DNA of 64,000 nt from a virus. Below the pieces are notes generated by a model. The model searched no databases and was not told the origin of the DNA. It worked only from the letters and a program-made list of their open reading frames with translations. The translations under genes were made by a program, and so were the position numbers. Below, one piece after another: positions 33,089 through 58,616 of this stretch (the stretch's first letter is position 1; the number at the start of each line of letters is the position of its first letter). Where the stretch lies: positions 21,289-85,288 of the IMG/VR virus record IMGVR_UViG_3300044673_000327, one strand, 5' to 3'.

Positions 33089-33134
33089 TCCTTCTCTCAT
33101 CTCGGGGGAAGGATTTCTTTTTTGTCGCGGGCTT
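33089..33134 (+). terminator. terminator followed by TCGCGGGCTT
   Basis: CCTTC pairs with GAAGG around a TCTCATCTCGGGG loop, then ATTTCTTTTTT; the 3' element is TCGCGGGCTT. The last bases enter the terminase gene on the other strand. Confidence 0.65.
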
Positions 33135-34743
33135 AATTCCTCGCGTGGAATTCCTCCATCGCAGTCTCCAGTCTCCGACGTACACCCAATCCCTTGAAGG
33201 CGAGGGCGAGGGAATCCACACAATCGTTATAGGCAACGGAACCGAATTGGGTTAGCTCGTTAATCCACGGACTCCAATCGATATACCGATTGAAGTAGAC
33301 TAACCCGTTGTGGAATAGACCCGTCATGCCGAGAAGATGACTCAGCTTATCGCCCCCGAGTTTGATGCCGTACACCTGCATCGAGTACAGTCCCTTCTCG
33401 TTGTGGATGTATTGAGTGAAGTCCATGACAAGGGATGCCTGATACGCCACGTCCTCGATGTAAACACGCCACGGGGTAACGCCATCGTCCCATTCCTCGT
33501 ATAGTTCCAATATCACCTCGCACTTATCGAGGTTGGATACCCACTTCCCGCGTCTACCATCGAGAACGTAGAAATGATCGCCTCTTTTCCCGAGTAGGGT
33601 GATGACGGTATAACAGGCTTTTTCTTTCTCCGATACGGCGAGATCGATACCGATAGCGAAGGAATCGAACGCGGTTCCGAGGGGGATGTCTTTGTAGAGA
33701 ATCCACGAGGGATCGATGCTCATCCCCTCGACTCGAACGACAACGTTCTGGTACTGGAACGAGAAGCCGAAGGGGTCTTCCCTCTGGAGTGTCTTGAGCT
33801 TTTCTGTCGGCCACCAATCGGGCCAGTAGGAAACGAGATTCCCCGAACCGTCATCGATAAGCGCCGATTGCTCGATAACCTTCCAGCCCTTTTCGGTCGT
33901 AAAGTCGGTGCAGTATATGTCATCGGGACGCATCCGAGTCCCTACACAGATCATCCGACCCCCATCGAGTAGGGTCGGTTTGATAACCGAATGGAACTTG
34001 GTTTGAATCTTCTCTCTCGTCTTGAGACTGGCGATGTCATCGGGAGATTTGATGATGTCGTCGAAGATAATAAGATGAGTACGCTTACCGACAATGGAAC
34101 CGGTGATACCCGTCGCGAGCATCGTGTAATCCTCGCCCCCCGTGTTATCGATTCCCGCCCACTTGCGATCGATCGTCCAGTAAGTATCGCTCCATTTATT
34201 CCCCTTGCGAATACAGGGAAAGACTTTCCGGTATTCTTCCCCGGTGAGGGTGTCTTTGATGATACCGCTTCTAGCTAGAGCGATCGCTTGAGAGGCGGAA
34301 GCGTAAAGAATCTGTAAGGCGATACCTTCGAGGGCGTGAGTACCGATCGCCCATGCCACGAACATATCGATGCGGGTACTCTTCGCCGAACCGCGAGGGC
34401 TGAGGATCAGGATATTATCCCCAGCTATCCCTCGAAGGTGTCGGCTATCGTTGCCCGTGACGAGGTGTTCGTCCCATCTCTTGTGATGCTCCGCCCCCGC
34501 GAGAGATTTATCGGGGGGTAGATTACGGGTGACATACCAACAGAAGTAATCGAAGTCTTTCCTCGCCCGAAGAATCTCCTCGTCGTCGGTATGCCATCGA
34601 TTCTCTTTTGCGATCGCCCCCTGCCGTTCTAGTTCTCTCTCCTCGGCGCGGGCGATCTCTATATCCACGAGAGCGCGACGGTATCGGTTCTTCTTGCCCG
34701 TACCGCTCGACCTGTTCCCCCTCGTTCCCGTCCTCGATGCCAC
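33133..34743 (-). CDS. terL: terminase large subunit
   Basis: The 536-residue protein has the ATPase Walker A SPRGSAKST (115-123), Walker B HLIIFDD (223-229) with catalytic acidic residues, and the coupling motif ICVGTR (265-270). The RNase H-like nuclease follows, with Asp in FAIGIDLAVSEKEKA, YIEDVAYQ and a final Asp in NDCVDSLALA. It pumps DNA into the prohead and cuts concatemers. It lies on the (-) strand between (+) class A modules, about 900 nt from the small-subunit candidate. No class C element was found within 200 nt upstream, so its promoter is unclear. Confidence 0.93.
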   Translation of the reverse strand: MASRTGTRGNRSSGTGKKNRYRRALVDIEIARAEERELERQGAIAKENRWHTDDEEILRARKDFDYFCWYVTRNLPPDKSLAGAEHHKRWDEHLVTGNDSRHLRGIAGDNILILSPRGSAKSTRIDMFVAWAIGTHALEGIALQILYASASQAIALARSGIIKDTLTGEEYRKVFPCIRKGNKWSDTYWTIDRKWAGIDNTGGEDYTMLATGITGSIVGKRTHLIIFDDIIKSPDDIASLKTREKIQTKFHSVIKPTLLDGGRMICVGTRMRPDDIYCTDFTTEKGWKVIEQSALIDDGSGNLVSYWPDWWPTEKLKTLQREDPFGFSFQYQNVVVRVEGMSIDPSWILYKDIPLGTAFDSFAIGIDLAVSEKEKACYTVITLLGKRGDHFYVLDGRRGKWVSNLDKCEVILELYEEWDDGVTPWRVYIEDVAYQASLVMDFTQYIHNEKGLYSMQVYGIKLGGDKLSHLLGMTGLFHNGLVYFNRYIDWSPWINELTQFGSVAYNDCVDSLALAFKGLGVRRRLETAMEEFHARN

Positions 34744-36980: not shown

Positions 36981-37004
36981 TTAATTCATTCCTCTCCTTC
37001 CTCT

Positions 37005-37049: not shown

Positions 37050-37052
37050 TAT

Positions 37053-37793: not shown

Positions 37794-37813
37794 ACTCTTT
37801 CTCTCCTATAGAT

Positions 37814-38881: not shown

Positions 38882-38895
38882 AATTCTTTACTCCT

Positions 38896-39762: not shown

Positions 39763-39780
39763 GGCTTTTTATCTCTCCCC

Positions 39781-40929
39781 CTATAGTCTTTGATTGAGGA
39801 TATTGGCTACCGTATCGTTCGTGACTTGCATCGCGGCGAGTTGATTACTCACCCGATTCGCCATCATCCCTACCTGAGCGTTGCGTAACCCCGCGAGGGA
39901 TTGGTACTCCAGTTGGTTCTTCGCCGCCCATTGTGCCTGTTCCCTACCCATCACCATCTGTTGTTGAGGGGTGGGCATATAGGGCAACATCCGATTCCAT
40001 TCACGATCGGCTTCTTCCCGTAGACGTTGCCGCTCGATAGCGAGACGGGCGTTGTCGCTCTCACCGGGGAGAATATCTTGAACCAACTCTTTACCGTCCG
40101 CACCGAGCATTTGATAAACTCCCGTCCCGACCGCGGCGGTTCCCCCGACGATCGCCCCACCGACTAGAGCGGCTTTACCGAACTTACCACCTCCACTCTT
40201 GAGGTTGTTGCCAACTTCTCCCGCTTTCCCCCATACCTTAGCGGCGGTTTCCTTGGTTCGATCGATTTGATTTCCAACACGCGCACGAAATCCCGAAGCT
40301 TTCTTTTCTGGTTCCGTTCCATTGGCGACGGGTTCGAGGATGGTGGAATCTTCCGAACCGATACCCGTTCTCGGAGGAGGTTCGAGTATTGCTACCGAAT
40401 TGCCCGCTACCGTTCCCGCCGATCGCATCGGATCGGTGAAGTCATTATCGATCGGGATCATTCTCCCGTTTCGATCGCGGACAAAGTTTCCCTGAGAGGT
40501 TTGGATAATCGAGTAATCTCCGTCCTCGACAACTCGACCGGATAGATCGTTGGTGGCGGGCGGATTGGTTCTACCCACCGTGTTTCCCGTGGTCGCCCAC
40601 GGATCTACCATAGCGCTATAGCCCGCGCTATCTAATGGATTATCGAAAGAGATCTCGGGAAGTTTATTAATGGAAGCAATAGGTTTTGAATTGGTATTTC
40701 TCGTCCAATCATTACCCCACGTTATCGAGGAATCTGTCCACTCACCGACATCGGGAGTGCCGAGTACCGCATTAGAGGTTAATCGATTGAAACCACCTCC
40801 GTAAAAATCCTTGTAACGATTAACGATATTCCCCGCGGAGTCGATGACGTAATCGATACCTCGTTTGGCGGAATCGCTAGGTTCGGTTTTTCCGAATCTA
40901 CTCGCTATGTATAATTCGTAATCGTTCAT
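39781..40929 (-). CDS. internal virion protein with glycine-rich membrane segment
   Basis: A 382-residue protein. The N-terminal 230 residues are mixed. A glycine/alanine-rich hydrophobic segment (KAALVGGAIVGGTAAVGTGVYQML, about 248-271) could insert into membranes, and the C-terminal 90 residues are helical and Gln-rich. A membrane-active segment fits an ejection protein that crosses the cell envelope. Its start overlaps the stop of the next upstream gene by four bases. Confidence 0.55.
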   Translation of the reverse strand: MNDYELYIASRFGKTEPSDSAKRGIDYVIDSAGNIVNRYKDFYGGGFNRLTSNAVLGTPDVGEWTDSSITWGNDWTRNTNSKPIASINKLPEISFDNPLDSAGYSAMVDPWATTGNTVGRTNPPATNDLSGRVVEDGDYSIIQTSQGNFVRDRNGRMIPIDNDFTDPMRSAGTVAGNSVAILEPPPRTGIGSEDSTILEPVANGTEPEKKASGFRARVGNQIDRTKETAAKVWGKAGEVGNNLKSGGGKFGKAALVGGAIVGGTAAVGTGVYQMLGADGKELVQDILPGESDNARLAIERQRLREEADREWNRMLPYMPTPQQQMVMGREQAQWAAKNQLEYQSLAGLRNAQVGMMANRVSNQLAAMQVTNDTVANILNQRL

Positions 40930-41957
40930 AATAATTGCGGGGGGGATAGATACTCGTTTCCTTGAGAGCGGATCTGTTTTACCTTCTCTCGGGTACGCTC
41001 TCTAATATTCCTTAGTTGTTCGGCGTAGTCGGAAGATGCTACCCCTCCACCCGAAGGAAAAGAATTAACTCTTTCCTCTCCTCTCCTTCCTCCGAATTGA
41101 TTCTGTAAATCCTCAACGGAATACCCCTGACGTTCCAACTCTTTTACTTGATCGGGTGATACTCCGATCCCGTTCTCCTGTAACTTGCGGGCTTTCTCGA
41201 AAGCGTCTTCCGTTACCGATTCATAAGCTTTGGTCGTCGCGAGATCTCCTAATCCCGCGCCTACCATACTCCCGATGATGCCGACGATAGGGGCGGCCGG
41301 TCCGAGCGGTGCGCCCAACGCCATGCCCGCGGTGAACCCGAGTTGCGCTCCGGCGATCGAACCGGCAGTACCCGCTCCGGCGCGAACCACGTTCTGCCCC
41401 GAACCTACCCGAGAGGTGAAATCGAGAACATCCCCGATCGCTCCCGCCGATTGGAGTACCTTACCCGGTACGTTAGCCGCTACCTGTAGGGCTTTACCCG
41501 CTCTCTCCCCCCCGAGGTTCTTGGTTCCCCAATCTCGTACTCCCTCGAACGCGTCGTAGTTGGTAGGGTTCCATGTATTGAGAGCCATATCCCACTGCTC
41601 GATGTACTGGTTGAGAGAGTTCTTGAGGATAGCCGAGGGGGTTCCTTTGAAACCTAAACCCTGACGGTTAGAATGGGCTTTATCTATTTCATCCTTGAAG
41701 ACATCCCATTTAGTCCGTCCGTCTTGCACTCCCGCCATCGCCTGTAAACCGCGGGCGAAACCACCACCACCGTACTCGGTGAGTTGTTGGTACTTCTGAT
41801 TGCCCGCTTCCCCGAGATCCCAACCGAGATAATCGGGAGTACTGATGTCGAGATAGTCGGTATTGTCGGTGAGGGTTGTCGGCAACTTCCACCATCCCCA
41901 AGCTCGGGAGCGATCCGGGGACGCGGTAGACGCGGGAGAGTAGGGAGTAGCGGTCAT
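40926..41957 (-). CDS. internal virion protein with glycine zipper
   Basis: A 343-residue protein with a prominent glycine-zipper region (about residues 198-245: AGTAGSIAGAQLGFTAGMAL, then APIVGIIGSMVGAGLGDLA) able to form membrane pores or channels. The flanks are charged and helical. Part of the C-terminal region (GRRGEERVNSFPSGGG) is encoded by a copy of the purine-rich dispersed repeat. It overlaps both neighbouring genes by four bases. Confidence 0.58.
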   Translation of the reverse strand: MTATPYSPASTASPDRSRAWGWWKLPTTLTDNTDYLDISTPDYLGWDLGEAGNQKYQQLTEYGGGGFARGLQAMAGVQDGRTKWDVFKDEIDKAHSNRQGLGFKGTPSAILKNSLNQYIEQWDMALNTWNPTNYDAFEGVRDWGTKNLGGERAGKALQVAANVPGKVLQSAGAIGDVLDFTSRVGSGQNVVRAGAGTAGSIAGAQLGFTAGMALGAPLGPAAPIVGIIGSMVGAGLGDLATTKAYESVTEDAFEKARKLQENGIGVSPDQVKELERQGYSVEDLQNQFGGRRGEERVNSFPSGGGVASSDYAEQLRNIRERTREKVKQIRSQGNEYLSPPQLL

Positions 41958-42523
41958 CGGTAATCCTCCATCGCGTTCTGTTGGTACTCGATCAACCTCG
42001 CCCTCTGCATAGCGGAGTTACGACGTTTCTGTAACTCGTTCTGAATACGGTAGTATTCTTCGGGGGTCATAGTCCGATCCCCCCCGTTATTAAACATTCT
42101 TTTTTGAAGAGCGTTCGTATCGATAGGTCGATTATCTTCGGGGGGTTTAGGCTCGCTCATCTTTTTCTCGACTAACGCTTTGGCTTCATCGGCGGGAATC
42201 CCGCTACTGACCAATTCGTTATAAAGAGATTCGGCGTAATCGTTCGGGAGATCCGATCTTAAATTCCAAGCGTTTCCCGTCACCGTATCGATCGCCCCAC
42301 CGAGGGGATTTCCTAGAGCGGTATTGGCGACGATGCCTAATCCCGTCGAGACGGGGATAGAGACGAGGGGATTATCGATCATCGCGTTAGCGGTAGCGAT
42401 CATCGGTTTGGAAACGATACCTACCCCTACAGCATCGGCTACACTACCGATCATTCCCGGAACCAGGGAGGCTACCCGAGAGGGCATGGTACTTACAAAA
42501 TAAGCTCCGTCTAATTTACTCAT
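41954..42523 (-). CDS. internal virion protein with hydrophobic N-terminal half
   Basis: A 189-residue protein with several moderately hydrophobic segments up to residue 90 (GMIGSVADAVGVGIVSKPMI, NPLVSIPVSTGLGIVANTAL) and a charged helical C-terminal half. The family is unknown. The start overlaps the stop of 42523-43083 by one base, continuing the tight operon. Confidence 0.55.
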   Translation of the reverse strand: MSKLDGAYFVSTMPSRVASLVPGMIGSVADAVGVGIVSKPMIATANAMIDNPLVSIPVSTGLGIVANTALGNPLGGAIDTVTGNAWNLRSDLPNDYAESLYNELVSSGIPADEAKALVEKKMSEPKPPEDNRPIDTNALQKRMFNNGGDRTMTPEEYYRIQNELQKRRNSAMQRARLIEYQQNAMEDYR

Positions 42524-43083
42524 TACCGTACCGCTCCTTCATTCTGCATGGATTGTAATTGTCGGAGGGTGATCATCTTACTGGCGATGTCCCTCTGTAA
42601 TCTATCGATCTCCCGACTAGCATCCTCCGCGCTGAGGGGGGGAACGGTTCCCGCGACGGGTACGGGAGTGTCCATCCCCCGACGATCTTCATCGGGTCTA
42701 AGGTTCAGGGTATTGAACGTGGCGAGATCGATAATCCCCTCGACGGGTTTATTCAACATCTGATCGACGACGTAAGCCCCTCCCGCGATAGCGGCGCTAC
42801 GTCCGGGGTAACGGGCGATGTAAGCGGTAGGGCGATCTCCGAATCGAGGTTCACTATTCGCGTTAAGAGAGATCGGTGTATTCTTAACCCCGAAGGTCGG
42901 GTTAACCCCACCGATGACCGTTCGATAGGTATCTTCGGTTGAAGGATCTACATAGGATCGTCCGAATTCATCGACGATACCGACCTTCGATCCTTTGGTA
43001 TTCCAGTTCTCTAGGTTATTGCCGACGATGGCGGAAGTGCGATTCCACTGATCGGCGATGGCGTTCTTTAAGTTATTCAGCAT
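42523..43083 (-). CDS. internal virion protein
   Basis: A 186-residue protein with an Ala/Gly hydrophobic stretch (ARYPGRSAAIAGGAYVVDQML, about 92-112) and a C-terminal coiled-coil-like helix (ASREIDRLQRDIASKMITLRQL). It resembles the preceding gene in layout. The leader is pyrimidine-rich on the coding strand (CCTCTCCTCTCC) with no Shine-Dalgarno. Confidence 0.55.
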   Translation of the reverse strand: MLNNLKNAIADQWNRTSAIVGNNLENWNTKGSKVGIVDEFGRSYVDPSTEDTYRTVIGGVNPTFGVKNTPISLNANSEPRFGDRPTAYIARYPGRSAAIAGGAYVVDQMLNKPVEGIIDLATFNTLNLRPDEDRRGMDTPVPVAGTVPPLSAEDASREIDRLQRDIASKMITLRQLQSMQNEGAVR

Positions 43084-43127
43084 GGCGGTAGGGGAGAGGA
43101 GAGGAGAGGAAAGGAAAGAGATTTAAA

Positions 43128-43367
43128 TTAATCCAATCGAATGTAAAACCATTCGATAATAGATAAGGAGCAAGAGACAACACCTATTAGAGTGCTTAAA
43201 ATATTGCCACTGAAAGCGGCACTAGCGATTAACGCGATGGCGGAAGCCCCACCAAGAATAATACTCTTACTCGATCGACGGGGATACCTAAACGACGACA
43301 CCACGAGAGCGATAGATAACACGGAAAAAAGACTACCGATAAACCCGAAACAATCTATCAATGACAT
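43128..43367 (-). CDS. small membrane protein, three hydrophobic segments
   Basis: A 79-residue protein with three hydrophobic stretches (about residues 5-25, 36-53, 55-75) separated by a basic turn (RYPRRSSKS). The ribosome binding site GGGAGG lies within a 23-bp repeat also found before the next gene upstream (43651-43673). A small transporter, holin or exclusion protein is possible. Confidence 0.55.
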   Translation of the reverse strand: MSLIDCFGFIGSLFSVLSIALVVSSFRYPRRSSKSIILGGASAIALIASAAFSGNILSTLIGVVSCSLSIIEWFYIRLD

Positions 43368-43369
43368 TA

Positions 43370-43392
43370 TTTAATCCTCCCGAGATGTTGAT
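43370..43392. repeat. 23-bp direct repeat, copy 1 (copy 2 at 43651-43673)
   Basis: Both copies contain TTTAATCCTCCCGAGATGTT plus GAT on the (+) strand. On the coding strand this carries the GGGAGG ribosome binding site used by the two small genes. Confidence 0.6.
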
Positions 43393-43652
43393 GTGGATAA
43401 TGGTTTATTAAGCGAGTAGAATCGATTCTTCAATTGCTTCACTCTTTCTTGATAAGAGAGATGAGTTTTAGATCCTGCGGTGATAACATCTTCCGAAGTT
43501 TCCATCCACGGCTCTACCCACTTACCTCGATCGCTATCCGGGTAAACGAGTACGGCATCCTCCCAATCATCATCGAAGGGCAGGGCATCGGGATCGGATA
43601 AAGCGTTCCGTTCGATTTCCTCTTCGGTCATACGTTCATTGTTGTCCATCAT
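43371..43652 (-). CDS. hypothetical acidic protein, 93 aa
   Basis: Not recognised. It is acidic (ERMTEEEIERNALSDPDALP, then FDDDWEDAVLVYPDSD). Its ATG overlaps the stop of the preceding gene (ATGATG at 43652). It is flanked by 23-bp direct copies of the ribosome-binding region, so it looks like an inserted gene. Confidence 0.58.
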   Translation of the reverse strand: MMDNNERMTEEEIERNALSDPDALPFDDDWEDAVLVYPDSDRGKWVEPWMETSEDVITAGSKTHLSYQERVKQLKNRFYSLNKPLSTSTSRED

Positions 43653-44890
43653 TTAATCCTCCCGAGATGTTGATTGAGTAAACGGAAAGCGGTAGCGGTT
43701 CCCCCGAGAGCGACGAGTCCGGTCGGGGTGACGTTGTACCCCACGAACTGCACCTCGGGTTGATTCTGGATACCGTCGGGGTTGAACTTGAGAACCCCGA
43801 GCGTAGCCTGACCGATCGGGTCGGGGGTCTTGCCCGATTGCCAATTGCGATAGGCTCGGTATTTCTCGTAGCTGACATCGGGACGCTCTTGGCTGAACTC
43901 GTCCCAATCGAGAATCCTTCCCCTTCTCCCGAGAAAGTATCTCTGGGCGATGTCGATCGGCGCGTTGAGGGATTTCGTCGGGTCGTCCTCGTCGGGGGTG
44001 ATCGCTTGAAATCCCGCGGGACGATTCCCCTCCATCGGATTGAGAAGGTTCTGGTTCCCCGAGAACTGTCCCATGAGTTCTGTCGCGAGGAAAGCCCCAC
44101 CCGTGGCTACCGCTCCCGCCGCTAGACTATCGCGGGGTAATCCGCCGGGGGGACTGGCGATAAACTCGTACCCTTTGGTGAACCCGAGATCGGCGGGATG
44201 CCATCTCCAATAGTTATGACGCATACCGCTACCCGCGATGTCCGCGCCCACCCGTCCTAATCGATAGCCCACCATCCCCGCGTCGGTTAGATCGGCGACG
44301 GATAGGGGATCGGTCGGTTTGTAGGCGGGTAGCGACCAACGGGGGTAAACTCTCTCCTCGCTATCGATACCCGGCTTCTGTTGTCCCTGAAGGTAGCCCC
44401 GCTTGAGTCCCCCGAAGAAACCGACGTTCGGTTCGGGGAGAGCGTCCATAAAACCGGGGATGATATCGGGGGTCTGTTCGGGTAACTTCGGGGGATCGTA
44501 ATCCTCCCCGATATAGCCCTGTAGGATCTCTAGAGGATCGCCCCCTTTCCCCTTGTACTTAGGATCGGCGCGATGGGCGGGAAGTTCTTTAGATAGATCC
44601 CGATCGACATCGTTACTCGGATTACTCGCTTCCCCGATCGCCATCCGTTGACTCGTTGTATCCCGAACGATACGGGCGTTACGTCTCGCCTCCTGTAAAG
44701 AAACGGGGATCTCGTAACCCCCGACACCCTCTAAAAACTCGGCTATCTGGAGGGGGGTTAGAGTATCGGGATTAACCCCGCTCGCCCCGAATCCCCGTTC
44801 CAAACTACGGGTAAGCCAATCGAGATCCGTGATAAGCGGATCGTGATCTCTTCGGTAAGCTTCGGCGATTCGGAAGAATCGGGAGTTCAT
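43649..44890 (-). CDS. internal virion protein, 413 aa
   Basis: A 413-residue protein, first gene of the (-) internal-protein operon. It has a helical N terminus (FRIAEAYRRDHDPLITDLDWLTRSLERGF), a proline-rich centre and a hydrophobic segment (RDSLAAGAVATGGAFLATELM, about 255-275) plus a C-terminal hydrophobic strand-helix (TPTGLVALGGTATAFRLL). A class C element lies 37 nt upstream and the leader is pyrimidine-rich. An ejection or core role is inferred. Confidence 0.58.
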   Translation of the reverse strand: MNSRFFRIAEAYRRDHDPLITDLDWLTRSLERGFGASGVNPDTLTPLQIAEFLEGVGGYEIPVSLQEARRNARIVRDTTSQRMAIGEASNPSNDVDRDLSKELPAHRADPKYKGKGGDPLEILQGYIGEDYDPPKLPEQTPDIIPGFMDALPEPNVGFFGGLKRGYLQGQQKPGIDSEERVYPRWSLPAYKPTDPLSVADLTDAGMVGYRLGRVGADIAGSGMRHNYWRWHPADLGFTKGYEFIASPPGGLPRDSLAAGAVATGGAFLATELMGQFSGNQNLLNPMEGNRPAGFQAITPDEDDPTKSLNAPIDIAQRYFLGRRGRILDWDEFSQERPDVSYEKYRAYRNWQSGKTPDPIGQATLGVLKFNPDGIQNQPEVQFVGYNVTPTGLVALGGTATAFRLLNQHLGRIK

Positions 44891-44963: not shown

Positions 44964-45722
44964 TCACCCCGCGACTTTCTCCAATCGCTCGATCACTCTC
45001 TCCACCCTCGGATCGATCTGTGACGGGGGAGTGAAAAAGCGATCGCCCGTGAAGGTGTTGTAGTCTTTCGAGAGTTTATCCGTCCACGTTCTCTCTTTTC
45101 TGTCGTCGTCGGAACTATCCATCTCGTGAATAACCCTACGGCACGAGGAATAAAGAACCGCGTCCTCCACCCAACGATCGAAAGTGAGGGCTTTATCTTT
45201 CGGGTTGGATAGACGGGCTTTCGCTTCCTCGAATAATTTCTCTAGGGCGGGAAGACTGTTATCGAAATCCACCCGATCGATCGATACGTTCAATCCCTTC
45301 AACCTCGCCATCATCTTCCAATAACGCACCACCCTCTCGGATTTGACCTGAGAGAATCGGATCGGGTGATGTTTATCGCGGACGTACTGGAGGATAGCCC
45401 CTCGAATACAGGGATAGGCGAAGGTAGAGAAACGATTACCCGTACTCGGATCGTATCTCTCGATCGCTTTGGTTAATCCCATCACTCCCTCGTGGATAGC
45501 GTCGGTCTCGTTTCCTTTGAGACAGTTGAACGCCTCTCCTTTAAAGGAATGGAATACCTTGAGAACGAGGTTGTAGTTATTCATCAGGATCGTCTCTCTC
45601 ATGTCGAGGGGACGATCTCGATCGATATATTCTTTCCAATATTCTAGATCCGTTCCCGATTTAGAGATCTGGATTAGATCTATTTCTCTTAAGCCACTAT
45701 GTAAACCCTTCGGTGATGGCAT
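44964..45722 (-). CDS. phage RNA polymerase sigma factor (region 2)
   Basis: Residues about 42-130 form sigma-70 region 2: LMNNYNLVLKVFHSFKGEAF (2.1), AIHEGVMGLTKAIERYDPST with GNRFSTFAYPCIRGAILQYV (2.2-2.4, which bind core polymerase and melt the -10 region). A recognisable region 4 is not obvious; the C-terminal 110 residues are helical and charged and end in RVERVIERLEKVAG. It should redirect the host polymerase to phage promoters. It has an AGGA ribosome binding site and lies upstream of the class C-driven virion operon on the same strand, but has no class C element itself, as expected for a gene needed before late transcription. Confidence 0.82.
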   Translation of the reverse strand: MPSPKGLHSGLREIDLIQISKSGTDLEYWKEYIDRDRPLDMRETILMNNYNLVLKVFHSFKGEAFNCLKGNETDAIHEGVMGLTKAIERYDPSTGNRFSTFAYPCIRGAILQYVRDKHHPIRFSQVKSERVVRYWKMMARLKGLNVSIDRVDFDNSLPALEKLFEEAKARLSNPKDKALTFDRWVEDAVLYSSCRRVIHEMDSSDDDRKERTWTDKLSKDYNTFTGDRFFTPPSQIDPRVERVIERLEKVAG

Positions 45723-48435: not shown

Positions 48436-48468
48436 GGTATAGGAATAATTGAAGATAAAGAGGTGATT

Positions 48469-50136
48469 ATGAATCGTATCGCTAATTTAATCCCGAGGGG
48501 GGCGAATGTTTATTCGAGAAATCCGGTCGCCGCGGTTTTAACCAACCCGACGGAACTCGCCCGATCGCTCGGCACGATCTCCCATCCGTACCCTCTGTAT
48601 AGTACGGATGGGCGTTTATTTCTCGATGTGGATACGGCTTATATCGATACTCTCAAACCCCGTTTCACTCAACCTTACGACGATCGTATGGTGAACGGGA
48701 TGGCGAGATTGAACGCCGCCAAGTTTCGGAGTAACCCCGAGTTATTAGAAATGGTTGAAGCTTCGGCGGGACAAGCTGGATTAGACCCGGAATCCTTTTT
48801 GCGATCGCTCCGGCACGAGGTAGTCGGCAACAAGTTCTGGGAAACCCCATCCCGTAAAGCTCCCGATGGAATGTCGGGGGCGATCGAGGCTTTAGCGAGA
48901 GGGTACGGTATGGCGAGACAAAACCCCGATTTATCCCTGCCATCCGGCAAGGTCATCTCGGTTCATCTTCCTCAGCCCCAGCATCCCGTGAATCGGGCGA
49001 AACAGAAACCGCTCGGTGTAGACGAAGGTGTAGCCGATTGGATAGCGAATCGTGACCCCGAGGGTTTGATTTTATTCGGGGATAACTATATCGGTAAGGG
49101 GAAAGCGGGTCAGGCGATTATCCGGGATAAGGATATAGCCGTAGGGATACCGACCAAGAAACTCCCCGCGATGAGTCCCGATTCCTTTCTCTACGATGAA
49201 GATCTCGACGAGTATATCCGACGGGTCAGCCCGACAATCGAGCGCTTACAACAGCATCTCGATCGCGGGGGGAGATTGTACTTCCTCTCCACCGGTATCG
49301 GTACGGGGTTAGCCGTAGCCCGTAACGGACGCTCTCAGAAACGGGTAGGGGATTGGTTGGCTAACCGTCTATACGAACTCGGAGTACCCGAATCGATTAT
49401 CGGTAATCCCCTCGGTGGTTCACTATCCCGTCAGCCCGTCGTCGCGAGTCACGTCGTGTCTTTCGCTAGTCCCAAGATGGAGAGTAATTCCGTGAATAGA
49501 ACGGCTAATATTAGCATCCCCGAATGGAATCCCGAACCCTATTTATCGGGGGGTAAGGTGCTGATGGGAACGGGTCATCGTCCCGACAAACTGGGAGGCT
49601 ACGATATTTATCCCTCGACCCTTAACAAGCTCACCGATCTGGCGGGCAATTATCTAGAAGAACTCGAACCCGATCGGGTGGTATCGGGCATGGCTCAGGG
49701 ATGGGATAGCGCGTTGGCGATCGCCGCTATCCGTAAGGGTATCCCGTTGACCGCGGCTGTCGCTTTCGATGGGGTCGAGAAACGTTGGACTCCCGACGCT
49801 CAACGATTATTCCACCGTATTCTCGACAAGTCCGATAACGTGCGGGTTGTCGGTAATACGGGAAGCGGTCGGAGCGCGGGGCAACTACTTAACGATCGCA
49901 ATCTCTGGATGATCGATAACTCTTCCGGGGTTCTCGCCCTCTGGAACGGGACATCGGGGGGAACGGCTAATGCGGTTCGAGACGCTATCGGTCGCGATAA
50001 GCCTATCCTCAATCTCTGGGATGAGTGGCGGGGAAAACCTACCCCGATCGTCGCTAATCCGATCGCTCCCACTCCTACCGATTCCCGTCCCGGTTTCGGT
50101 AACTGGCAAGTCACCTATTACGGGAAACCGAAATAG
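48469..50136 (+). CDS. macro-like / SLOG fusion, predicted nucleotide binding
   Basis: Three parts are visible. Residues 1-160 are a helical unknown domain. Residues about 195-300 hold LILFGDNYIGKGKAGQAIIR, DIAVGIPTKKLP and FLSTGIGTGLAVARN, a macro-like Rossmannoid domain of the kind that binds ADP-ribose-type ligands. Residues about 365-530 are a SLOG (DprA/YspA-like) domain: MGTGHRPDKLGGYDIYP, VVSGMAQGWDSALAIAA, a W-x-P-D-A-Q-R-L-F-H segment, RNLWMIDNSSGVLALW and GTSGGTANAV. SLOG domains bind nucleotides or ADP-ribose derivatives. It is a class A early-type gene. Binding or removing a host signalling nucleotide is a testable guess. The start is ATG 48469 with AAAGAGG upstream; a GTG lies two codons earlier. 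Confidence 0.65.
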   Translation: MNRIANLIPRGANVYSRNPVAAVLTNPTELARSLGTISHPYPLYSTDGRLFLDVDTAYIDTLKPRFTQPYDDRMVNGMARLNAAKFRSNPELLEMVEASAGQAGLDPESFLRSLRHEVVGNKFWETPSRKAPDGMSGAIEALARGYGMARQNPDLSLPSGKVISVHLPQPQHPVNRAKQKPLGVDEGVADWIANRDPEGLILFGDNYIGKGKAGQAIIRDKDIAVGIPTKKLPAMSPDSFLYDEDLDEYIRRVSPTIERLQQHLDRGGRLYFLSTGIGTGLAVARNGRSQKRVGDWLANRLYELGVPESIIGNPLGGSLSRQPVVASHVVSFASPKMESNSVNRTANISIPEWNPEPYLSGGKVLMGTGHRPDKLGGYDIYPSTLNKLTDLAGNYLEELEPDRVVSGMAQGWDSALAIAAIRKGIPLTAAVAFDGVEKRWTPDAQRLFHRILDKSDNVRVVGNTGSGRSAGQLLNDRNLWMIDNSSGVLALWNGTSGGTANAVRDAIGRDKPILNLWDEWRGKPTPIVANPIAPTPTDSRPGFGNWQVTYYGKPK

Positions 50137-50317
50137 AGAGAAGAGAAAGAGAGAAGGGGATTAATTACTTTTTAAAAGAGGGTAATTAATTCTCTCCGTA
50201 TCCGATCGCCCCTCTATAAATTAATAACCTCTCCTTCATTCCTTCCTTCTCTCTCTAGGGTATAGAGATAGTCGGGAGGAATTGTTGTAGATGGGTTACT
50301 CGTGGTGGTAATTCAAT

Positions 50318-50340
50318 TTCTTTAGGTTAGCCCTTCGGGG
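50318..50340 (+). promoter_or_regulatory. class A leader element
   Basis: TTTAGGTTAGCCCTTCGGGG, 39 nt before the ATG at 50380. Confidence 0.65.
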
Positions 50341-50379
50341 TATCGGTGGGTGTAATTAATTTATTCAAAGTAGCCAATT

Positions 50380-50658
50380 ATGCTTTACGTTGTTGAACGC
50401 TGGAGACAACTTTCCGATAACAGTTGGGTGTTTCAATGCTTCGATGTTTATCAGAACGAAAAGACCGCGCGACGTATCGCCAAGATGTTTCATGACGCGG
50501 ATAAAGAATGGTTCCCAACTCGCACTCCTCGCAAGGTTAAACGTTCTGAAGTATCGACCTTTCTTCGTGCCGCTCGGAAAATCAAAGTAACCCTTAGCCT
50601 GTATCCCGACTTCTCTATGGGATGTTGGGGAGTGAACTTCCTAGAGGGAAGAAATTAA
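50380..50658 (+). CDS. hypothetical basic protein, 92 aa
   Basis: Not recognised. It is a basic, aromatic-rich protein (VVERWRQLSDNSWVFQCFDV, then KMFHDADKEWFPTRTPRKVK). It lies just upstream of the RNA polymerase gene and is separated from it by a long hairpin, so polymerase expression could depend on read-through from this class A promoter. Confidence 0.62.
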   Translation: MLYVVERWRQLSDNSWVFQCFDVYQNEKTARRIAKMFHDADKEWFPTRTPRKVKRSEVSTFLRAARKIKVTLSLYPDFSMGCWGVNFLEGRN

Positions 50659-50678: not shown

Positions 50679-50741
50679 AACCTATCGGGGTTGGGTTAGT
50701 AGGTACTGCAATACCTCTTATCACTAACTTCCCGATAGGTT
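50679..50741 (+). promoter_or_regulatory. long three-tier hairpin in the RNA polymerase leader
   Basis: AACCTATCGGG and CCCGATAGGTT form an 11-bp outer stem. Inside it GTTAGT pairs with ACTAAC, and AGGTA with TACCT around a CTGCAA loop. It ends 28 nt before the polymerase ATG. There is no T-run after it, so it is more likely an RNA control or processing element than a simple terminator. Confidence 0.6.
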
Positions 50742-50769: not shown

Positions 50770-53397
50770 ATGAGCCAAGCCAAATACGTTCCGACCGAGA
50801 AGTTTATTCCCCGTCGGTTCCGATTCAACTCGTCTACAGAAGGCGAGTTCGTGGATCTCCCCGTGGAATTATGCACTCAATACCGCCACACTCTCTTTCA
50901 GGCGATGCACGGGAACGTGGATGACGTGATTCTCGTCGATTGTTCCAAGCTCACCTCCGATGACAAGGGACGGGAGATTAACCCCGACCTTGTTACTCAA
51001 GCACTGACCGACAACCTACCCGATGGATACCGCCTAGACGGGGCTACGGGTAGCCGGAAGAAAGGTCAGGTATTCGCTACCTCCCGTAAGGGAAAGACCT
51101 ACTCCGAACTCTACCTATCCGGTTCCAAGCGGGTATCCCATTATTCGATGCTCTGGAGCGAGAACCGGGCGATCGTTAACCTCTCGAATGTCCGTGTCGT
51201 GGTTCTCGATGATGCCGATTACGAACTGCAAGTAGAAATTGGAGTCGGTGATTGTCACGGTCTAATCGGTCACTCTCTTCATCAAGCGATCGTCGAAGCA
51301 TCAGATCCTTTTCTCAAGTCCCCGATCGATCCTCGGGGGATGCTCCAGTTCCGTCTAGCCCTCAAGTCCAAATGGTGCGCGAAGGGTACGACTCTACCCC
51401 TCGGTGGTGAGTTGGAATTCAAGGGGGAACCCGTCGATCTGATTCTGCCCGCTTCCTCGTTCAAGGGTTCATGTCCGAAGCTCGGTAAGGTTCACGAGTA
51501 CAAATCTCTGTACTTCGGGATCTATAAAGTCTCCCGCACCACCCGGTACTCTACCTCCCATACCGTGACGGGTTGGTTTCAATCCGAGGACTCCAAGAAG
51601 TTTCTTCTCGACGCGGCTCGCGAGGAGATGGAAACCCTGATCGAGAAACGCAAGGATGTCCGCAAGTTAGCCGTTCACTACCTCGATCGCACCGTGGGAA
51701 CGGTTGACGGGGAACTGTCCGACGACCCCGAAGAACGTATCGAACAGGAGAAGAAACTAGCCTTCTGCTCTTACGCCCGTATCTTGAGTAAGGACACTTA
51801 CAACCAACTCGCCCTACACCCGAAAACGAAGCAGTGGGCGAACCAGATTACCGCTAATCTAGTCAAGGATATAGCCCTCGGATCGTTCATTCGCGCCAAG
51901 GGTTCGATGTTAGCCCCATTGCCTTTCCTCAAGGGCGATACGGTTATCTCTCACGATTTACCGACGGGACAGTACGTCTATTGGCGATACCCGATCAGGG
52001 CTTACAACGACATCTTTAAGGTGTACGTTATCAACACAAGAGATTTGCGTTGTCGTCTCGAACGCTATCTCGGGTACTTTACCGATCTCAATCTTCTCGA
52101 CTCGATTTATTTTCAATCTCTCGTCAACTCCGATCTAACGGGAACGGCTTGGGTTTCTCCCTCCGTCGCCCGTAAATCAGCCGCCGATTATGACGGTGAT
52201 TACGGTTGTTTCATTCCCTGTAGCGAGATCCGTCCTCTTGCTGACGAGATCGATACTTGGCAGGAATTACCCGAACCGGTCAAACCCCCGAAGAATCCGA
52301 TTAACGGTTCCCTCGAATCCATCGCCGCCAAGTCGATGTCTAACAAGGTAGGTCTGATTTCCTACATCATCACCTGTTGCCGTATCCTCGGGTGGAAGTT
52401 TCATTACCCCAAGTTAGCGGAGGCTTTACAGACGGAAGTAGACGGTCTAAAATCCGAGAACCCCGTGGATTGGGCTTACGTTAACGATGTTCTAAAACGA
52501 ACGGGTAGCGCGTTTAAAGAAGCGGAGAAGAAGGGAATTCAGGCGTGGGTACGTTGTTACAAGCATCCCGATCTCTATACCCAACGCCCCCTTGTCTCCC
52601 ACTACGACGATATAATCTCCAAACTCTGCAATCTAACATCGGAGATGTGGGAAAAAGGAATCGACCCCGATGACATCTCCCCGTTCCAGTGTCGTTCTAC
52701 TCACGACTTCCGTTGTCTATTCGATCCCCTCGTTCCCTACGAATCGATTCCTAAAGAGTGGTTTCATCGGGCGGGCGATTGGGTTTACGAGTACAAGAAG
52801 ATGTTAGGAGGTGTCCTAAGAATCAAGAAAGAACGCATGACAGTGACCGAGATCGAGGAGTTCCGTCAGGGACTCAAGGAGATAGGCGACCACTTTAAAC
52901 GCAAAGCCGATTCGATCACCAATCCCGCGTCCAAGCTTAAGTTCGCCGCCGCCATGCACCGTGTCCTGCACGATCGCCCCAAGCCCGGCGAGGACAATTC
53001 GGAACGGATCTGCTCTCTGGTTTTTCAGATATTCCCCGACGAGTATATTCGAGCGCTCTCGACCCCTCCCAACTATCAATTCCGGTTGTGGAGAAATTGC
53101 GAGAAAGCACCTTCCGATCTAGGGGATAAGGTATTCAATAACGAGATCGTTCCCGTCAAGATCACTAATACCCGATTCACCGTTAACGGTCAGGAGGTGG
53201 ACGCGCTCTATATGGTCGAACTGCACACGGGTAAGAAGGTAGCCCGTGTTGTCACCGATAACATGGCGGGGTACGTCTCCCTGCCCCTACCCGAGACCCG
53301 TCTCGTGGTCAAGGTCAACTCGGTATTCAGCCCGAGTAAGAAGACCTATACTTATCACGAAGCTCGTGTAGTTCCCGAAGAAGCTCTAGAGTTCTAA
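50770..53397 (+). CDS. single-chain double-psi-beta-barrel RNA polymerase
   Basis: An 875-residue protein. The catalytic loop of the beta'-like barrel is SAADYDGDYGCF, with DYDGD at 473-477, matching the D-x-D-G-D of multisubunit RNA polymerase beta' (NADFDGD) and of single-chain relatives (YonO, QDE-1). About 65 residues before it lies YWRYPIRAYND (404-413), the equivalent of the barrel's R-x-P strand; after it comes SMSNKVGLISYIITCC, matching the G-x-I helix that follows the barrel in that family. A Lys-rich segment (LALKSKWCAKGTTLP, 196-210) may be the second barrel. The size is close to that of YonO. It should make RNA from phage DNA without host subunits. Start ATG has AAGG upstream. Confidence 0.78.
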   Translation: MSQAKYVPTEKFIPRRFRFNSSTEGEFVDLPVELCTQYRHTLFQAMHGNVDDVILVDCSKLTSDDKGREINPDLVTQALTDNLPDGYRLDGATGSRKKGQVFATSRKGKTYSELYLSGSKRVSHYSMLWSENRAIVNLSNVRVVVLDDADYELQVEIGVGDCHGLIGHSLHQAIVEASDPFLKSPIDPRGMLQFRLALKSKWCAKGTTLPLGGELEFKGEPVDLILPASSFKGSCPKLGKVHEYKSLYFGIYKVSRTTRYSTSHTVTGWFQSEDSKKFLLDAAREEMETLIEKRKDVRKLAVHYLDRTVGTVDGELSDDPEERIEQEKKLAFCSYARILSKDTYNQLALHPKTKQWANQITANLVKDIALGSFIRAKGSMLAPLPFLKGDTVISHDLPTGQYVYWRYPIRAYNDIFKVYVINTRDLRCRLERYLGYFTDLNLLDSIYFQSLVNSDLTGTAWVSPSVARKSAADYDGDYGCFIPCSEIRPLADEIDTWQELPEPVKPPKNPINGSLESIAAKSMSNKVGLISYIITCCRILGWKFHYPKLAEALQTEVDGLKSENPVDWAYVNDVLKRTGSAFKEAEKKGIQAWVRCYKHPDLYTQRPLVSHYDDIISKLCNLTSEMWEKGIDPDDISPFQCRSTHDFRCLFDPLVPYESIPKEWFHRAGDWVYEYKKMLGGVLRIKKERMTVTEIEEFRQGLKEIGDHFKRKADSITNPASKLKFAAAMHRVLHDRPKPGEDNSERICSLVFQIFPDEYIRALSTPPNYQFRLWRNCEKAPSDLGDKVFNNEIVPVKITNTRFTVNGQEVDALYMVELHTGKKVARVVTDNMAGYVSLPLPETRLVVKVNSVFSPSKKTYTYHEARVVPEEALEF

Positions 53398-54050: not shown

Positions 54051-57000
54051 ATGTCCGATCCCCTCACCCGTATTCTCCGCGTCGTTTCCCGCGACGGTAC
54101 TGAAGACATCGTACCGATCGGGGCTTTCGGTATCCCCGATTTTCAAGGGGATCTACCGCCGCTCACCCGTTCGAGTCAGTTAGTCGATTTCGCCCTACCC
54201 CATAATCAGAAGTACGGATCTGGGGAGTGGAGAGTTAACGAGAAGACGGGACAGCCTTATTTCGTCAAGATAGACTACGGGATCGAGGGGGATAAGTTCG
54301 ATCGACTGGTGGCGGGATTAAGAACTCAGACTACCCGTAAAGATAACTTCACCGGTCGGGCGTTAGGCAGGAGCGGGGGTAGGATCGGGAATCCCGATGT
54401 TCGTCCGATGCGGATCGTGACCTACGATAACCCCGATCTTAACGAGGGAACGGGGCAGATATTAGAGGTGACGGGGGTTAGTACCCTCGGGGAGAAGTAC
54501 CCCGCGCTGACCGGCAGGGATTGGAGCGGGGACATCTGGAGCGATCGGGATGGAGATGAACTGAAAGCCTTAAGCGATGAACAGAAAGAACGGGTAAAAC
54601 AACAGGCTACCGATTACGCCAGAGCGGAAGGGGCTGTACGCCCGGATGGAACGGTGGTTGGTCGGTACACGGGGGATACCCTCGGCGATCGCCGTAATTA
54701 CTTCGTCGATGGCGATACCCGCTATTCCAAACCGGGTTACTCCCCCTACTACTCCGACGCGAACGTTATCGATTTCAAGCCCGTGGGGGAACCTTTCCCT
54801 CTCTCGCGATCCCCGCGAAATATTCTCGACAAGATCGCCCTAGAACGGAGAGCGAACGCGGAATCGAAGATCGTTAACCCCGATGGCTCTATCATCCATA
54901 CCTCCCGTCAACCGATCGACGGGGTGGTGACGGATAGCGAGGGCAACGAGATCCTTTACCCCTCTCTCAACGACGCGGGATTAGAGAGTCTCGGGATCTA
55001 TAACAAGACGGGGGGATTCGTCTCTGGAGGGGAACGACAGAACGGTATCAAGTACGAGGGGATCGATATGCCTAAAAATCCCCTCAAGTTCGTGATACCG
55101 GGTGACGAGGATAATTATAACGCGGCGTTGAATTACCCGATGGACGGACAACCGGGGCGGAATATCGTACCGGTACGGGTCGGGGGATTACGGTATCAAC
55201 TCGGGTTGGCGGACAATAAACCCGATACGAATCAGTTCTCCGAGTTGGTCAAGCGGTACGCGGGGGGAGATTTCGATCCTCAAGACCTACCCGATTTCAT
55301 TCTGAACGCTCCCCCCGGCTCCATCCCGACCGACGGACGGGGTAAACCTTTCCACGGGGCGAGTAACCCGAGTATGAACAGTCTCGCCTACCGGATAGCG
55401 GAACAGGTAAAACTGAACCGACAGTTACGGGAAGCGAGTCAAGCCTTCAGCGAGAGTACCCTATTCCCCCGTAACCAACTGGAGACGCTGGACGGGACGG
55501 TAGCGGAGATCGATCGTACCCAGAAAGCTTATCTCTCCAGTAGTAAGAACCCCGTCGATCTATTACAGGGACACGCCAAGTTTTATCTTCAAGACGAGAA
55601 CACGAAAGATAACTTCGATTACGAACCCGCTATGAGCCACGAGGCGCGGGAGATCTTGAGCGATAACCCCAACTACGGCAAGACGATCACCACGGGCAAT
55701 ATTCCCCTCGTCGATAATCTATACCGTCAGGAGTTGAGGGAATCCAGGCCGAATGGGGGATTGGGGGTAAGAGGATTCGGTTCTGATTCCCGCGGTTTCT
55801 ACGCCGATTATTTCGGAAGGTTCGAGAATAAGAGAGTGGACGAGAACGGGAATCTTATTCGGACATTCGTTCAGAAACCCCTCTTTAAAACCGAGGCGGA
55901 TCGACAGTATGTCGATAGTCGATTAGTTGGAAAACGATTCGAGGACGAGAACTATCAACCGTTCGTGACGTGGGGGATGAAAGATGGCAAGCGAGTGGTG
56001 ATCGATGATGGTTCCCCGATCGGGCCGTATCTCCCCAGAGCTTACGAGCCGAAGGTAAATTCATCGTCCCCCCTAAACCCGATCGATTCGGTTATCACCT
56101 CGCTTCCCTCGGCTAACCTCTGGCTCGATGGGGGGAATCAATACCCCCTCGCGAGAACGGTCAAATGGATTAACGAGTATTGGCGACCGAATAATCCGAA
56201 AGCGGCGGGACTCGATCTCTCCAGAATGACCGAACCCGAGAAGTTCGAGTTAGATCGCGCCCTCGGACTCGTGACCGATGAACCGTTACCGATCGAACTG
56301 GCTTCCCTCTCAGATCCGAGAGCGGTAGCGGAAGGTGGGGTATCGAGCAGACCCCTGACCGATGAAGAGATTCGGGGACGGGGCGAGGGAAGAGAGAGCG
56401 ATCGGGTTTACGAGTGGAGTGCCAAAGCACCTGAATCCCAACTCGAACAGGTTTTCTTAGACTCGATGGATAACCCTCGAACCGGTGGGGTTCGACTCGG
56501 GGAAGTTCTCGGGTTGCCTTTTGTTAACCCCTCCACCCGAAAGGATGGAGTGAAATACTCTCTCTCTTCTATTATCGGGGGGGGTGATTCTTCTCCTAAT
56601 ACGACGGGAAATTTGGAAGATACTTTATCGCTCAAGGGAACCGGCTACAACCCCGAGAATCAAGACCTCTCGATCTTCGATCTTCCCGATAACGTGTTCG
56701 TTCTCGATTCCCCTCGTGAAACTCCAAAAATCCTGAGTGTTCAGGGGACGAAATCCGATAGCTACGACGGGGCGAGAGTACCGGGTTTTCTCAATCAACT
56801 ACGGGGTATGAGACAAGATCCCAAGACGGGACAGATGACCTACTCCGACAGGGCGAATATCGTCGGGGTTAACCCTCCCGAAGAAGTTCCCGCCAACGCC
56901 GACGAGATCGTGCAAGGTATGGGTTACGAGAACTACGCCCATTACCTTAACGAAAATCGATTCCTACACCCGAACCAGAATAAAGCGAAGGTGAAAGTCG

Positions 57001-58616
57001 ATCGCAAGAAGTTGTTCGTGACCGATACAAGTTACGACTTTAACGATCCTCTCGTACAAGACGCGGCTTTCGTTCCGTTTAAAGAGATCGCTAAGAATTC
57101 CGATGGAACGATTAACGATAAATATCTATTCGCTCCCGCTCGGTACTCTACTGGCGAGATGCCAGAGAAAGGATTGATGTACCCCTCCGCCGAAGACGAG
57201 TTCACGATTCTCGACGATCTACTCGGGAGAACCTATATCGAGTTCAACGGGAAGAAATATCCCATCGAACCGACCCCGATAGATCCGAAAGATCCCCTGC
57301 TCGAAGGAGCGATGACCCCGACGATCGAGAACGCGATTCAGGAGGGCAAGAGAAAGATCGCCATGATTAAATCGGAGTTGGGATTACGGAGAGGCAGAAG
57401 CCCGGCGCGGATCGAGAAGGAACTTAACCCCAAACTCGAACCGTGGGAAAGACCCGACCCGTCGGCGCGACAACAAGCCGTGGGCGCTCCGATTGTCTCG
57501 AACACACCGCTATGGGTAGACGAGAGCGTGACGGGACTCGCCGCCCCCTCGCTCGCCGATCTACCGCGGTTAACTCCCGAGATTAAGAACACCGTCTATC
57601 GCGAGCATTTCCCCAATACCAACTCGGGAGACTTCAACCCGAACCGAACGGATTTTCTCTCTTCCGATCGGGTAATCCCGAACGAGAAAGAGGCGACTAA
57701 ACCCTTCACCTTCTACGATGACATCATCCCCGTGGGCGAGTTGGACGACACGACCCTTAACGATCTGATCGCCCATTACGAGAAAGAGATCGCCCGCGCC
57801 GAGTTAGCCCGAGAGAAGGTGTACGGGTTACAGGAGGTTGACCCTATCGATCTCAAGGTGCGTTCCGTTGTCACCCCCGTAGCCGATAGAGATTCGTTCA
57901 AAAGCGTAGCCCGTCCATCCGTAGAGTTAACCCCCGAAGAGGTGGAAGAACTGCAACGACCGGGTAAAGAGCGAGCGGTCTCTAATCTCTCCGCTTTACT
58001 AGAGGAGATCAAGAAAACGAGAACCGCCCCGAGAATCCCGCTACCCGCGCCGATACCGAGAACCGAACGGGTCAGAGTTCCCGCCCCCGTACTCGCCCCC
58101 GAACGTGAACCATTACCGCCCCCGACCCTCGCCTCTATATTCGGCAACGAACCGGTGATCGATGTTCCCGCGGTCGAAGTACCCGAGACTCCCGTTCCCG
58201 CCGCTCCCGCTACCCCGAACAAGTCGGTATGGTTCGAGCCGGTAGAGGAGAGGAAGGAAAGAGAGGAGGTTTTAAATTCTCTTCTCGGGGGGAGTAGTCA
58301 ATTTGTCGGGGCAACTCCGAACACTCTCGATGAGTTATTGAACCAACCGATAATCTCTAGCCCTGTCGCTACCGCTACGAGACCCACCCCGGAAGAGAAT
58401 ATACAAACTCTTTCCTCTCCTTCCTCTCCTCCGAACGCCCCGATCGAGAACCCGAACGGGTTAGTTCGATTGCCCGATGGTCGGGTCGTACCCCGATGGA
58501 TGATCGCCCTCGGACTCGGGGGTGTGGCTCTCGGGGGATTGGCGGTAGGACGGGAACTGAGTCGGGATAATCGAGACGATCGCTCTAGTCGGGTCAGGGA
58601 TTGGTACGGGTACTAG
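54051..58616 (+). CDS. giant virion-associated protein, 1521 aa
   Basis: A very long, Pro/Asp/Gly-rich protein without a recognised enzymatic motif. Residues 1-1150 are mixed with many short GDTRY- or DNPD-like turns. Residues about 1330-1480 are Pro-rich and disordered (RIPLPAPIPRTERVRVPAPV, then PETPVPAAPATPNKSV). Residues 1486-1505 form a hydrophobic helix (WMIALGLGGVALGGLAVGRE) followed by a basic tail ending WYGY. Two stretches (ERKEREEV and LSSPSSPPN) are encoded by copies of the purine-rich repeat. Class C expression implies a virion protein, probably an ejected one. No Shine-Dalgarno; the ATG follows CTTTCTTCCT. Confidence 0.65.
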   Translation: MSDPLTRILRVVSRDGTEDIVPIGAFGIPDFQGDLPPLTRSSQLVDFALPHNQKYGSGEWRVNEKTGQPYFVKIDYGIEGDKFDRLVAGLRTQTTRKDNFTGRALGRSGGRIGNPDVRPMRIVTYDNPDLNEGTGQILEVTGVSTLGEKYPALTGRDWSGDIWSDRDGDELKALSDEQKERVKQQATDYARAEGAVRPDGTVVGRYTGDTLGDRRNYFVDGDTRYSKPGYSPYYSDANVIDFKPVGEPFPLSRSPRNILDKIALERRANAESKIVNPDGSIIHTSRQPIDGVVTDSEGNEILYPSLNDAGLESLGIYNKTGGFVSGGERQNGIKYEGIDMPKNPLKFVIPGDEDNYNAALNYPMDGQPGRNIVPVRVGGLRYQLGLADNKPDTNQFSELVKRYAGGDFDPQDLPDFILNAPPGSIPTDGRGKPFHGASNPSMNSLAYRIAEQVKLNRQLREASQAFSESTLFPRNQLETLDGTVAEIDRTQKAYLSSSKNPVDLLQGHAKFYLQDENTKDNFDYEPAMSHEAREILSDNPNYGKTITTGNIPLVDNLYRQELRESRPNGGLGVRGFGSDSRGFYADYFGRFENKRVDENGNLIRTFVQKPLFKTEADRQYVDSRLVGKRFEDENYQPFVTWGMKDGKRVVIDDGSPIGPYLPRAYEPKVNSSSPLNPIDSVITSLPSANLWLDGGNQYPLARTVKWINEYWRPNNPKAAGLDLSRMTEPEKFELDRALGLVTDEPLPIELASLSDPRAVAEGGVSSRPLTDEEIRGRGEGRESDRVYEWSAKAPESQLEQVFLDSMDNPRTGGVRLGEVLGLPFVNPSTRKDGVKYSLSSIIGGGDSSPNTTGNLEDTLSLKGTGYNPENQDLSIFDLPDNVFVLDSPRETPKILSVQGTKSDSYDGARVPGFLNQLRGMRQDPKTGQMTYSDRANIVGVNPPEEVPANADEIVQGMGYENYAHYLNENRFLHPNQNKAKVKVDRKKLFVTDTSYDFNDPLVQDAAFVPFKEIAKNSDGTINDKYLFAPARYSTGEMPEKGLMYPSAEDEFTILDDLLGRTYIEFNGKKYPIEPTPIDPKDPLLEGAMTPTIENAIQEGKRKIAMIKSELGLRRGRSPARIEKELNPKLEPWERPDPSARQQAVGAPIVSNTPLWVDESVTGLAAPSLADLPRLTPEIKNTVYREHFPNTNSGDFNPNRTDFLSSDRVIPNEKEATKPFTFYDDIIPVGELDDTTLNDLIAHYEKEIARAELAREKVYGLQEVDPIDLKVRSVVTPVADRDSFKSVARPSVELTPEEVEELQRPGKERAVSNLSALLEEIKKTRTAPRIPLPAPIPRTERVRVPAPVLAPEREPLPPPTLASIFGNEPVIDVPAVEVPETPVPAAPATPNKSVWFEPVEERKEREEVLNSLLGGSSQFVGATPNTLDELLNQPIISSPVATATRPTPEENIQTLSSPSSPPNAPIENPNGLVRLPDGRVVPRWMIALGLGGVALGGLAVGRELSRDNRDDRSSRVRDWYGY

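Follow-up and report, generated by a model that had tools for sequence, protein, structure and literature searches.

The DNA analysed here, a window of 64,000 nucleotides that forms part of an 85,288-base virus record, carries an open reading frame (ORF) that very probably encodes a phage-made single-chain DNA-dependent RNA polymerase (RNAP) of the two-double-psi-barrel kind, with which this virus of cyanobacteria probably drives the expression of some of its own genes. The assignment was made by computation, from the predicted fold, the DxDGD motif, two lysines, homology to YonO, conservation in a phage lineage and on plasmids, and purifying selection. Two-barrel RNAPs are an ancient family that includes the cellular RNA polymerases. 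Their single-chain members are simple relatives of the cellular enzyme, and very few of them have been studied. The features discussed below are collected in Table 1.

Table 1. Positions of the polymerase gene, its motifs and related features in the window (position 1 is the first nucleotide of the window).
Feature	Position	Strand	Evidence or remark
Single-chain two-barrel RNAP gene (P0001)	50770..53397	+	ORF, fold match, YonO profile match
First-barrel signature, K205-G206-T207 and S229-x-x-K232-G233	51382..51468	+	invariant in 31/31 rows
RYP strand, residues 406-408	51985..51993	+	P408 invariant, R406 in 17/31; YonO has R492/P494
Catalytic loop DYDGD, residues 473-477	52186..52200	+	corresponds to YonO invariant D535/D537/D539
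Post-loop helical segment, NKVGLI (525-530) and LQTEVDGLKS	52342..52455	+	Q554, V557, D558, K561 invariant
92-aa ORF	50380..50658	+	directly 5' of polymerase; a class B element lies ahead of it
Strong RNA hairpin between the 92-aa ORF and the polymerase ATG	50679..50741	+	-30.7 kcal/mol, z -4.7 vs shuffles
Class B element TAGGTTAGCCCTTCGGG ahead of polymerase operon	50312..50359	+	9 copies in genome
Element A copies in window	18393, 31598, 46211, 58644	+	
Element B copies in window	28815, 29190, 29978, 31739, 32819, 35120, 36586, 48418, 50323	+	
Phage sigma factor	44964..45722	-	region 2 detected; PHROG sigma E 1.5e-22
Terminase large subunit	33133..34743	-	phrog_38 E 6.4e-79; places the phage
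Giant 1521-aa ORF	54051..58616	+	zero cysteine; hydrophobic segment near C terminus

The original prediction had read the ORF as a polymerase from a DYDGD loop, a preceding RYP strand and a following NKVGLI helix. The ORF proved to be intact, with an ATG start and 875 codons for 875 amino acids, with the loop at residues 473-477, as claimed, and the NKVGLI helix at residues 525-530. The RYP strand was also present, at residues 406-408, and its P408 is invariant, although R406 is not family-wide (17 of 31 rows). Shuffling this protein produced D.DGD by chance in 1.5% of cases, so the motif by itself is weak evidence and needs the support of homologues. Among homologues of about 22-27% identity, DxDGD was present in 60 of 60 related ORFs fetched by search, and in a 31-row family alignment, the members of which are 22-26% identical to the query polymerase, the invariant positions comprised D473, D475, G476, D477, K205-G206-T207, S229, K232-G233 and P408 as well as Q193, G528, Q554, V557, D558 and K561. 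Both barrel signatures lie within one 875-residue chain, unlike those of multisubunit RNAPs, in which beta and beta' are separate subunits. The loop aspartates are the metal ligands of YonO, QDE-1 and cellular RNAP, and a pair of basic residues from the other barrel contributes to catalysis (see also PMC7824862). By analogy, the DYDGD aspartates of the window enzyme would hold the metal ions, and K205 and K232, the presumed catalytic lysines, would assist catalysis. The post-loop helical segment, with G528, Q554, D558 and K561 conserved, is a candidate bridge-helix/funnel region. Upstream, the 92-aa ORF is probably the first gene of the polymerase operon, and the hairpin between it and the polymerase start may serve in processing or control. 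The gene two places upstream of the polymerase (window 48463-50136) encodes a protein with DUF7831 and a SLOG/YpsA-like domain; a SLOG protein is also encoded near the polymerase homologue on the Synechocystis B12 plasmid (L010 3728-4189).

An AlphaFold model of the window polymerase reached a mean pLDDT of 75.5 and a pTM of 0.76, with low confidence for the C-terminal 100 residues. Structure comparison, which had been proposed as a check, supported a fold with two double-psi barrels, in that all 21 PDB matches at E<=0.001 were two-barrel polymerases, with RDR2 of maize (E 1.5e-13) and QDE-1 (E 3.4e-13) ahead of the P23-45 gp64-type RNAP (1.4e-9), crAss gp66 (2e-5) and P23-45 gp96 (4e-5). Fold matches at this cut-off in a viral structure library were likewise two-barrel polymerases. 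A second model, built for the polymerase of the phage relative G004 (26% identical), was of higher confidence (pLDDT 84.3) and gave 38 PDB matches at E<=0.001, all of them two-barrel polymerases of the same kinds as before, with E down to 1.5e-17; it also picked up large subunits of multisubunit RNAPs, both cellular and viral. No match of the window polymerase to T7-like single-subunit RNAPs (palm-domain) appeared in the Pfam and fold searches, and a single-sequence search of PDB sequences returned no match.

The profile comparison with the YonO family yielded a colinear hhalign alignment of 522 columns with 95.6% probability (E 1.2e-8), compared with 0.05% for a terminase used as negative control. 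In the separately aligned YonO family, K271-G272, S313, K316, R492, P494, D535/D537/D539, G593, D625 and K628 are invariant, and the order KG, SxxK, RxP, DxDGD, G, DxxK is found in both families, the R of RxP in 17 of the 31 rows on the side of the window enzyme, with K205 and K232 agreeing in order and context with YonO K271 and K316. YonO, from Bacillus phage SPbeta, was shown experimentally to be a single-peptide DNA-dependent RNAP (PMC5467207). It resembles the window enzyme in being a phage-borne single chain of similar length, but the two share about 13% identity and belong to different phage groups with hosts of different phyla; the window phage has, besides, a sigma factor and a giant cysteine-free neighbour of the polymerase, and the activity of its enzyme is a prediction. 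The query alone matched no Pfam polymerase family and a single PHROG of unknown function (phrog_34895, E 1.4e-20); a DUF5053 match at residues 655-716 fell under its cut-off and was set aside. Across the 31 family members, Pfam RdRP (PF05183) matched seven (best E 2.3e-7; two that were inspected score slightly below the curated cut-off), RNA_pol_Rpb1_2 matched one, and the PHROG 'RNA-dependent RNA polymerase' model phrog_4291 matched 11, a model that also matched in 12 of 14 control genomes, presumably through their cellular RNAP genes.

QDE-1 and RDR2, the best fold matches, have two barrels in one chain and a DxDGD-type loop, as does the window enzyme, but they are eukaryotic RNA-silencing enzymes with 12-14% identity to it. 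Because these nearest structures are RNA-templated or dual-template polymerases, we infer DNA dependence from the phage setting. An RNA-dependent or dual-template enzyme that copies phage or host RNA, for example for double-stranded RNA or for transcript regulation, would agree with the fact that the best fold and Pfam matches are cellular RNA-dependent RNA polymerases, and with a weak RDR2 alignment that covers a common D-x-x-G-K-I-S and Q-x-R stretch. We nevertheless consider such a role very unlikely. No RNA-interference partner for it is known in cyanobacteria, which counts against this explanation. Moreover, YonO and P23-45 gp64, which are also related, are DNA-dependent RNAPs, the latter by experiment as well (PMC5467207, PMC10770324). 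The non-virion RNAP of P23-45 (gp64) and P74-26 (gp62) is a fold match with a TM of about 0.5 by target length, and the P74-26 catalytic loop TGADYDGDIGYLFP is near-identical to SAADYDGDYGCFIP of the window; it is a smaller protein, however, with sequence similarity detectable in the loop only (hhalign 0.7%), and the available text of PMC10770324 describes no sigma pairing for gp64, whereas the window phage has a sigma factor.

The window terminase large subunit is 47-50% identical to those of six of seven viral contigs, against about 40% for Synechococcus phage S-EIVl. A portal was found in five contigs, with 44-47% identity to that of the window. The seventh contig, G006 (L075), was left out of the phage relatives, as it has no terminase or portal match and its polymerase is close to the copies on Planktothrix plasmids; it may be a plasmid within the viral collection. 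That the phage has its own sigma factor, as originally claimed, was borne out by a Pfam Sigma70_r2 match (E 3.1e-12), while no region 4 was detectable in this protein. Sigma homologues of 35-42% identity were present in all six related viral contigs, and RNAP and sigma occurred together in 6/6. By eye, the sigma factors of the relatives keep a region-3-like part and have no region 4. Given that the lineage conserves both proteins, it is plausible, as had been suggested, that RNAP and sigma would give the phage two independent ways of reaching its promoters. S-EIVl is the nearest annotated phage, with terminase, portal and major capsid protein related to those of the window phage, but has neither this RNAP nor a sigma factor, indicating that the RNAP-sigma module is not required by all members of the wider group. 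Two side observations concern these genomes: the S-EIVl terminase gene (L003 14081-16621) carries a large intein-like insert relative to the window terminase, and an ORF at window 1856-2803 resembles, by eye, an EAL-type cyclic-di-GMP phosphodiesterase, which is unusual in a phage.

A single-sequence search with the window polymerase found no match in viral contigs or annotated phages, and annotated phages hold no homologue of it. By contrast with the single sequence, the family alignment retrieved 53 cyanobacterial genome loci and seven viral contigs, and a profile search located the family in 38 of 386 cyanobacterial genomes, about 10% of the sampled cyanobacterial species. It was a tblastn search of plasmids that first revealed the family. 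Of its 45 records, almost all came from cyanobacteria (Pseudanabaena with E 6e-50, Nostoc, Planktothrix, Gloeothece and others), and two Rhizobium records among them were at E 2-3; the plasmid homologues are almost all annotated 'hypothetical protein'. A defence role of the family was rejected, with no PADLOC match among 31 members. YonO-like proteins in cyanobacterial genomes were reported earlier, according to PMC5467207, which cites Ruprich-Robert and Thuriaux 2010; these may overlap the plasmid family. On a Gloeothece citriformis plasmid (L012 5818-13002), a fusion protein of about 2,800 aa combines the homologue with an RNase H domain (E 1.3e-30). A gene for an HU-type DNA-binding protein adjoins the polymerase on a Phormidium plasmid (L007 3706-4236), in SPbeta (yonN, L097 20835-21113) and in phage Perkons (L099 3680-3693).

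In the polymerase tree, the window enzyme does not group with the polymerases of its phage relatives, and a tree in which all polymerases of the lineage share one origin was rejected (AU p 2.5e-5). The window branch is very long (2.7 changes per site), so replacement of the polymerase from plasmids, or its exchange with them, is put forward from these sequences as a possibility. Such a branch might also be expected of a decayed or misread gene with an inactive product, an explanation to which we give hardly any credence: the ORF is intact, the catalytic residues are all kept, and the polymerases of the relatives are under strong purifying selection (dN/dS 0.05-0.14 in comparisons with unsaturated synonymous sites).

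Gene order was compared in four phages, namely the window phage, G003, G004 and G007. In each, the polymerase and the sigma-terminase-portal operon occupy opposite strands, with the polymerase a few kb from sigma, and the next large gene 3' of the polymerase is a giant ORF, of 1521, 1884, 1429 and 1951 aa, respectively. None of the four giants contains a cysteine; for the window giant the expectation is about 12 and the probability of none about 5e-6. Most proteins of the late-arm block (window 36603-44890) are also without cysteine. The giants of G003 and G004 are homologous (E 2e-10), and the window and G003 giants have at most a C-terminal hydrophobic stretch in common (E 0.002). The giant protein probably belongs to the virion or to the ejected material and is less likely to be a polymerase subunit. 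Its constant position downstream of the polymerase, its lack of cysteine together with a C-terminal hydrophobic segment, the nearly cysteine-free late-arm block and the presence of crAss gp66 and P23-45 gp96 among the fold matches could all be accommodated if the virion contained the polymerase and delivered it along with the DNA for the first round of transcription, as with phi14:2 gp66 or P23-45 gp96, the giant being the carrier of the polymerase. We regard this as unlikely, because the polymerase gene lies opposite the structural-gene strand and outside the late operon, the enzyme has 17 cysteines (15-17 in the relatives) where the giant has none, and the model fits the compact non-virion P23-45 enzyme better than gp96. 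The crAss-like phage protein phi14:2 gp66 is also a single-chain two-barrel phage RNAP, but it has 2,166 residues and is packaged in the virion, whereas the 875-residue window enzyme is encoded apart from the structural genes. We favour a non-virion polymerase.

The plus strand carries the polymerase, a DnaB helicase and other non-structural genes. A replication enzyme, that is, a two-barrel protein that primes or copies phage DNA as a primase or PolD-like DNA polymerase, would be in line with the helicase gene and with the fact that no primase or DNA polymerase family match was found among the scanned window and upstream proteins; PolD has the same two-barrel core (PMC10770324). However, PolD is not among the 50 fold matches listed, all named homologues are RNA polymerases, and S-EIVl has an annotated primase and PolA but no homologue of the window polymerase, showing that replication and two-barrel functions are separable in S-EIVl. 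A replication role is thus highly improbable, and transcription remains the preferred function.

Two repeated elements precede genes of the polymerase strand, mostly 40-60 bases 5' of plus-strand start codons. All nine copies of element B are on the plus strand, seven of them within 120 bases 5' of a plus-strand gene start (random mean 0.8), and element A, GATAGCTACGCTA, is likewise restricted to the plus strand with five of seven copies within 120 bases 5' of plus-strand genes (random mean 0.5). Both can form small stable hairpins, that of B with a C(UUCG)G tetraloop, so a role as mRNA leaders or dispersed repeats is as possible as one as promoters. No promoter motif common to the window phage and its relatives was found, and the relatives have other elements. 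G003 and G007 (loci L089-L096) have the element AGCAAAATAAAC, which is absent from the window. Most of its copies (9 of 11 and 8 of 10, respectively, with about 1 expected at random) lie 13-39 bases upstream of start codons, on either strand, and they include copies that flank the divergent region beside the sigma operon; the element may be a promoter or a translation signal. A separate palindrome, GGCGTTAGCC, occurs in up to about 30 copies per genome in contigs G003, G007 and G004, and its copies, with their flanks, nearly all have one orientation along the genome, whatever the gene strand.

The most likely function of the enzyme is that of a DNA-dependent RNAP for phage genes of the early/middle strand, for which we infer template, promoters and timing. 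In the mechanism that we propose, host RNAP would make the phage polymerase mRNA after entry, and the phage polymerase would then transcribe the rightward (plus-strand) phage genes, among which its own gene lies. The phage sigma factor, encoded at the head of the leftward structural-gene operon, would bring host RNAP to the late promoter. In P23-45, late genes likewise depend on host RNAP (PMC10770324).

Single-chain two-barrel phage RNAPs of the YonO/QDE-1 type and YonO-like proteins in cyanobacterial genomes are known already; what is new is their occurrence in a lineage of cyanophages, the combination with a phage sigma factor and how widely the family is spread on plasmids. Among the papers covered by a literature search, a jumbo-phage survey alone mentioned both cyanophages and YonO, and its available text describes no such cyanophage enzyme; in that text, the RNAP-bearing group 1 phages have no sigma factor and the group 2 phages carry sigma without RNAP (PMC7824862). 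As such phage RNAPs are known and none was described there in a cyanophage, the lineage with its sigma pairing is read as extending a known kind. An RNAP and a sigma factor of its own in one phage are unusual. The phage relatives offer compact, intact enzymes (about 770-880 aa) for biochemistry, and the plasmid family, present in about one in ten sampled cyanobacterial species, carries 'hypothetical protein' labels. More tentatively, and with considerable doubt, these polymerases may constitute an RNAP family of mobile elements, mostly in cyanobacteria, that gives plasmids and phages private transcription from their own promoters and is exchanged between them, joined here by a region-4-less sigma factor so that two polymerases would serve separate promoter sets. 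Taken furthest, this reading would have the plasmid enzymes copy RNA besides DNA, as is the case for their closest structural relatives. With the phage lineage, it could be put to the test whether two polymerases share the work of a single infection.
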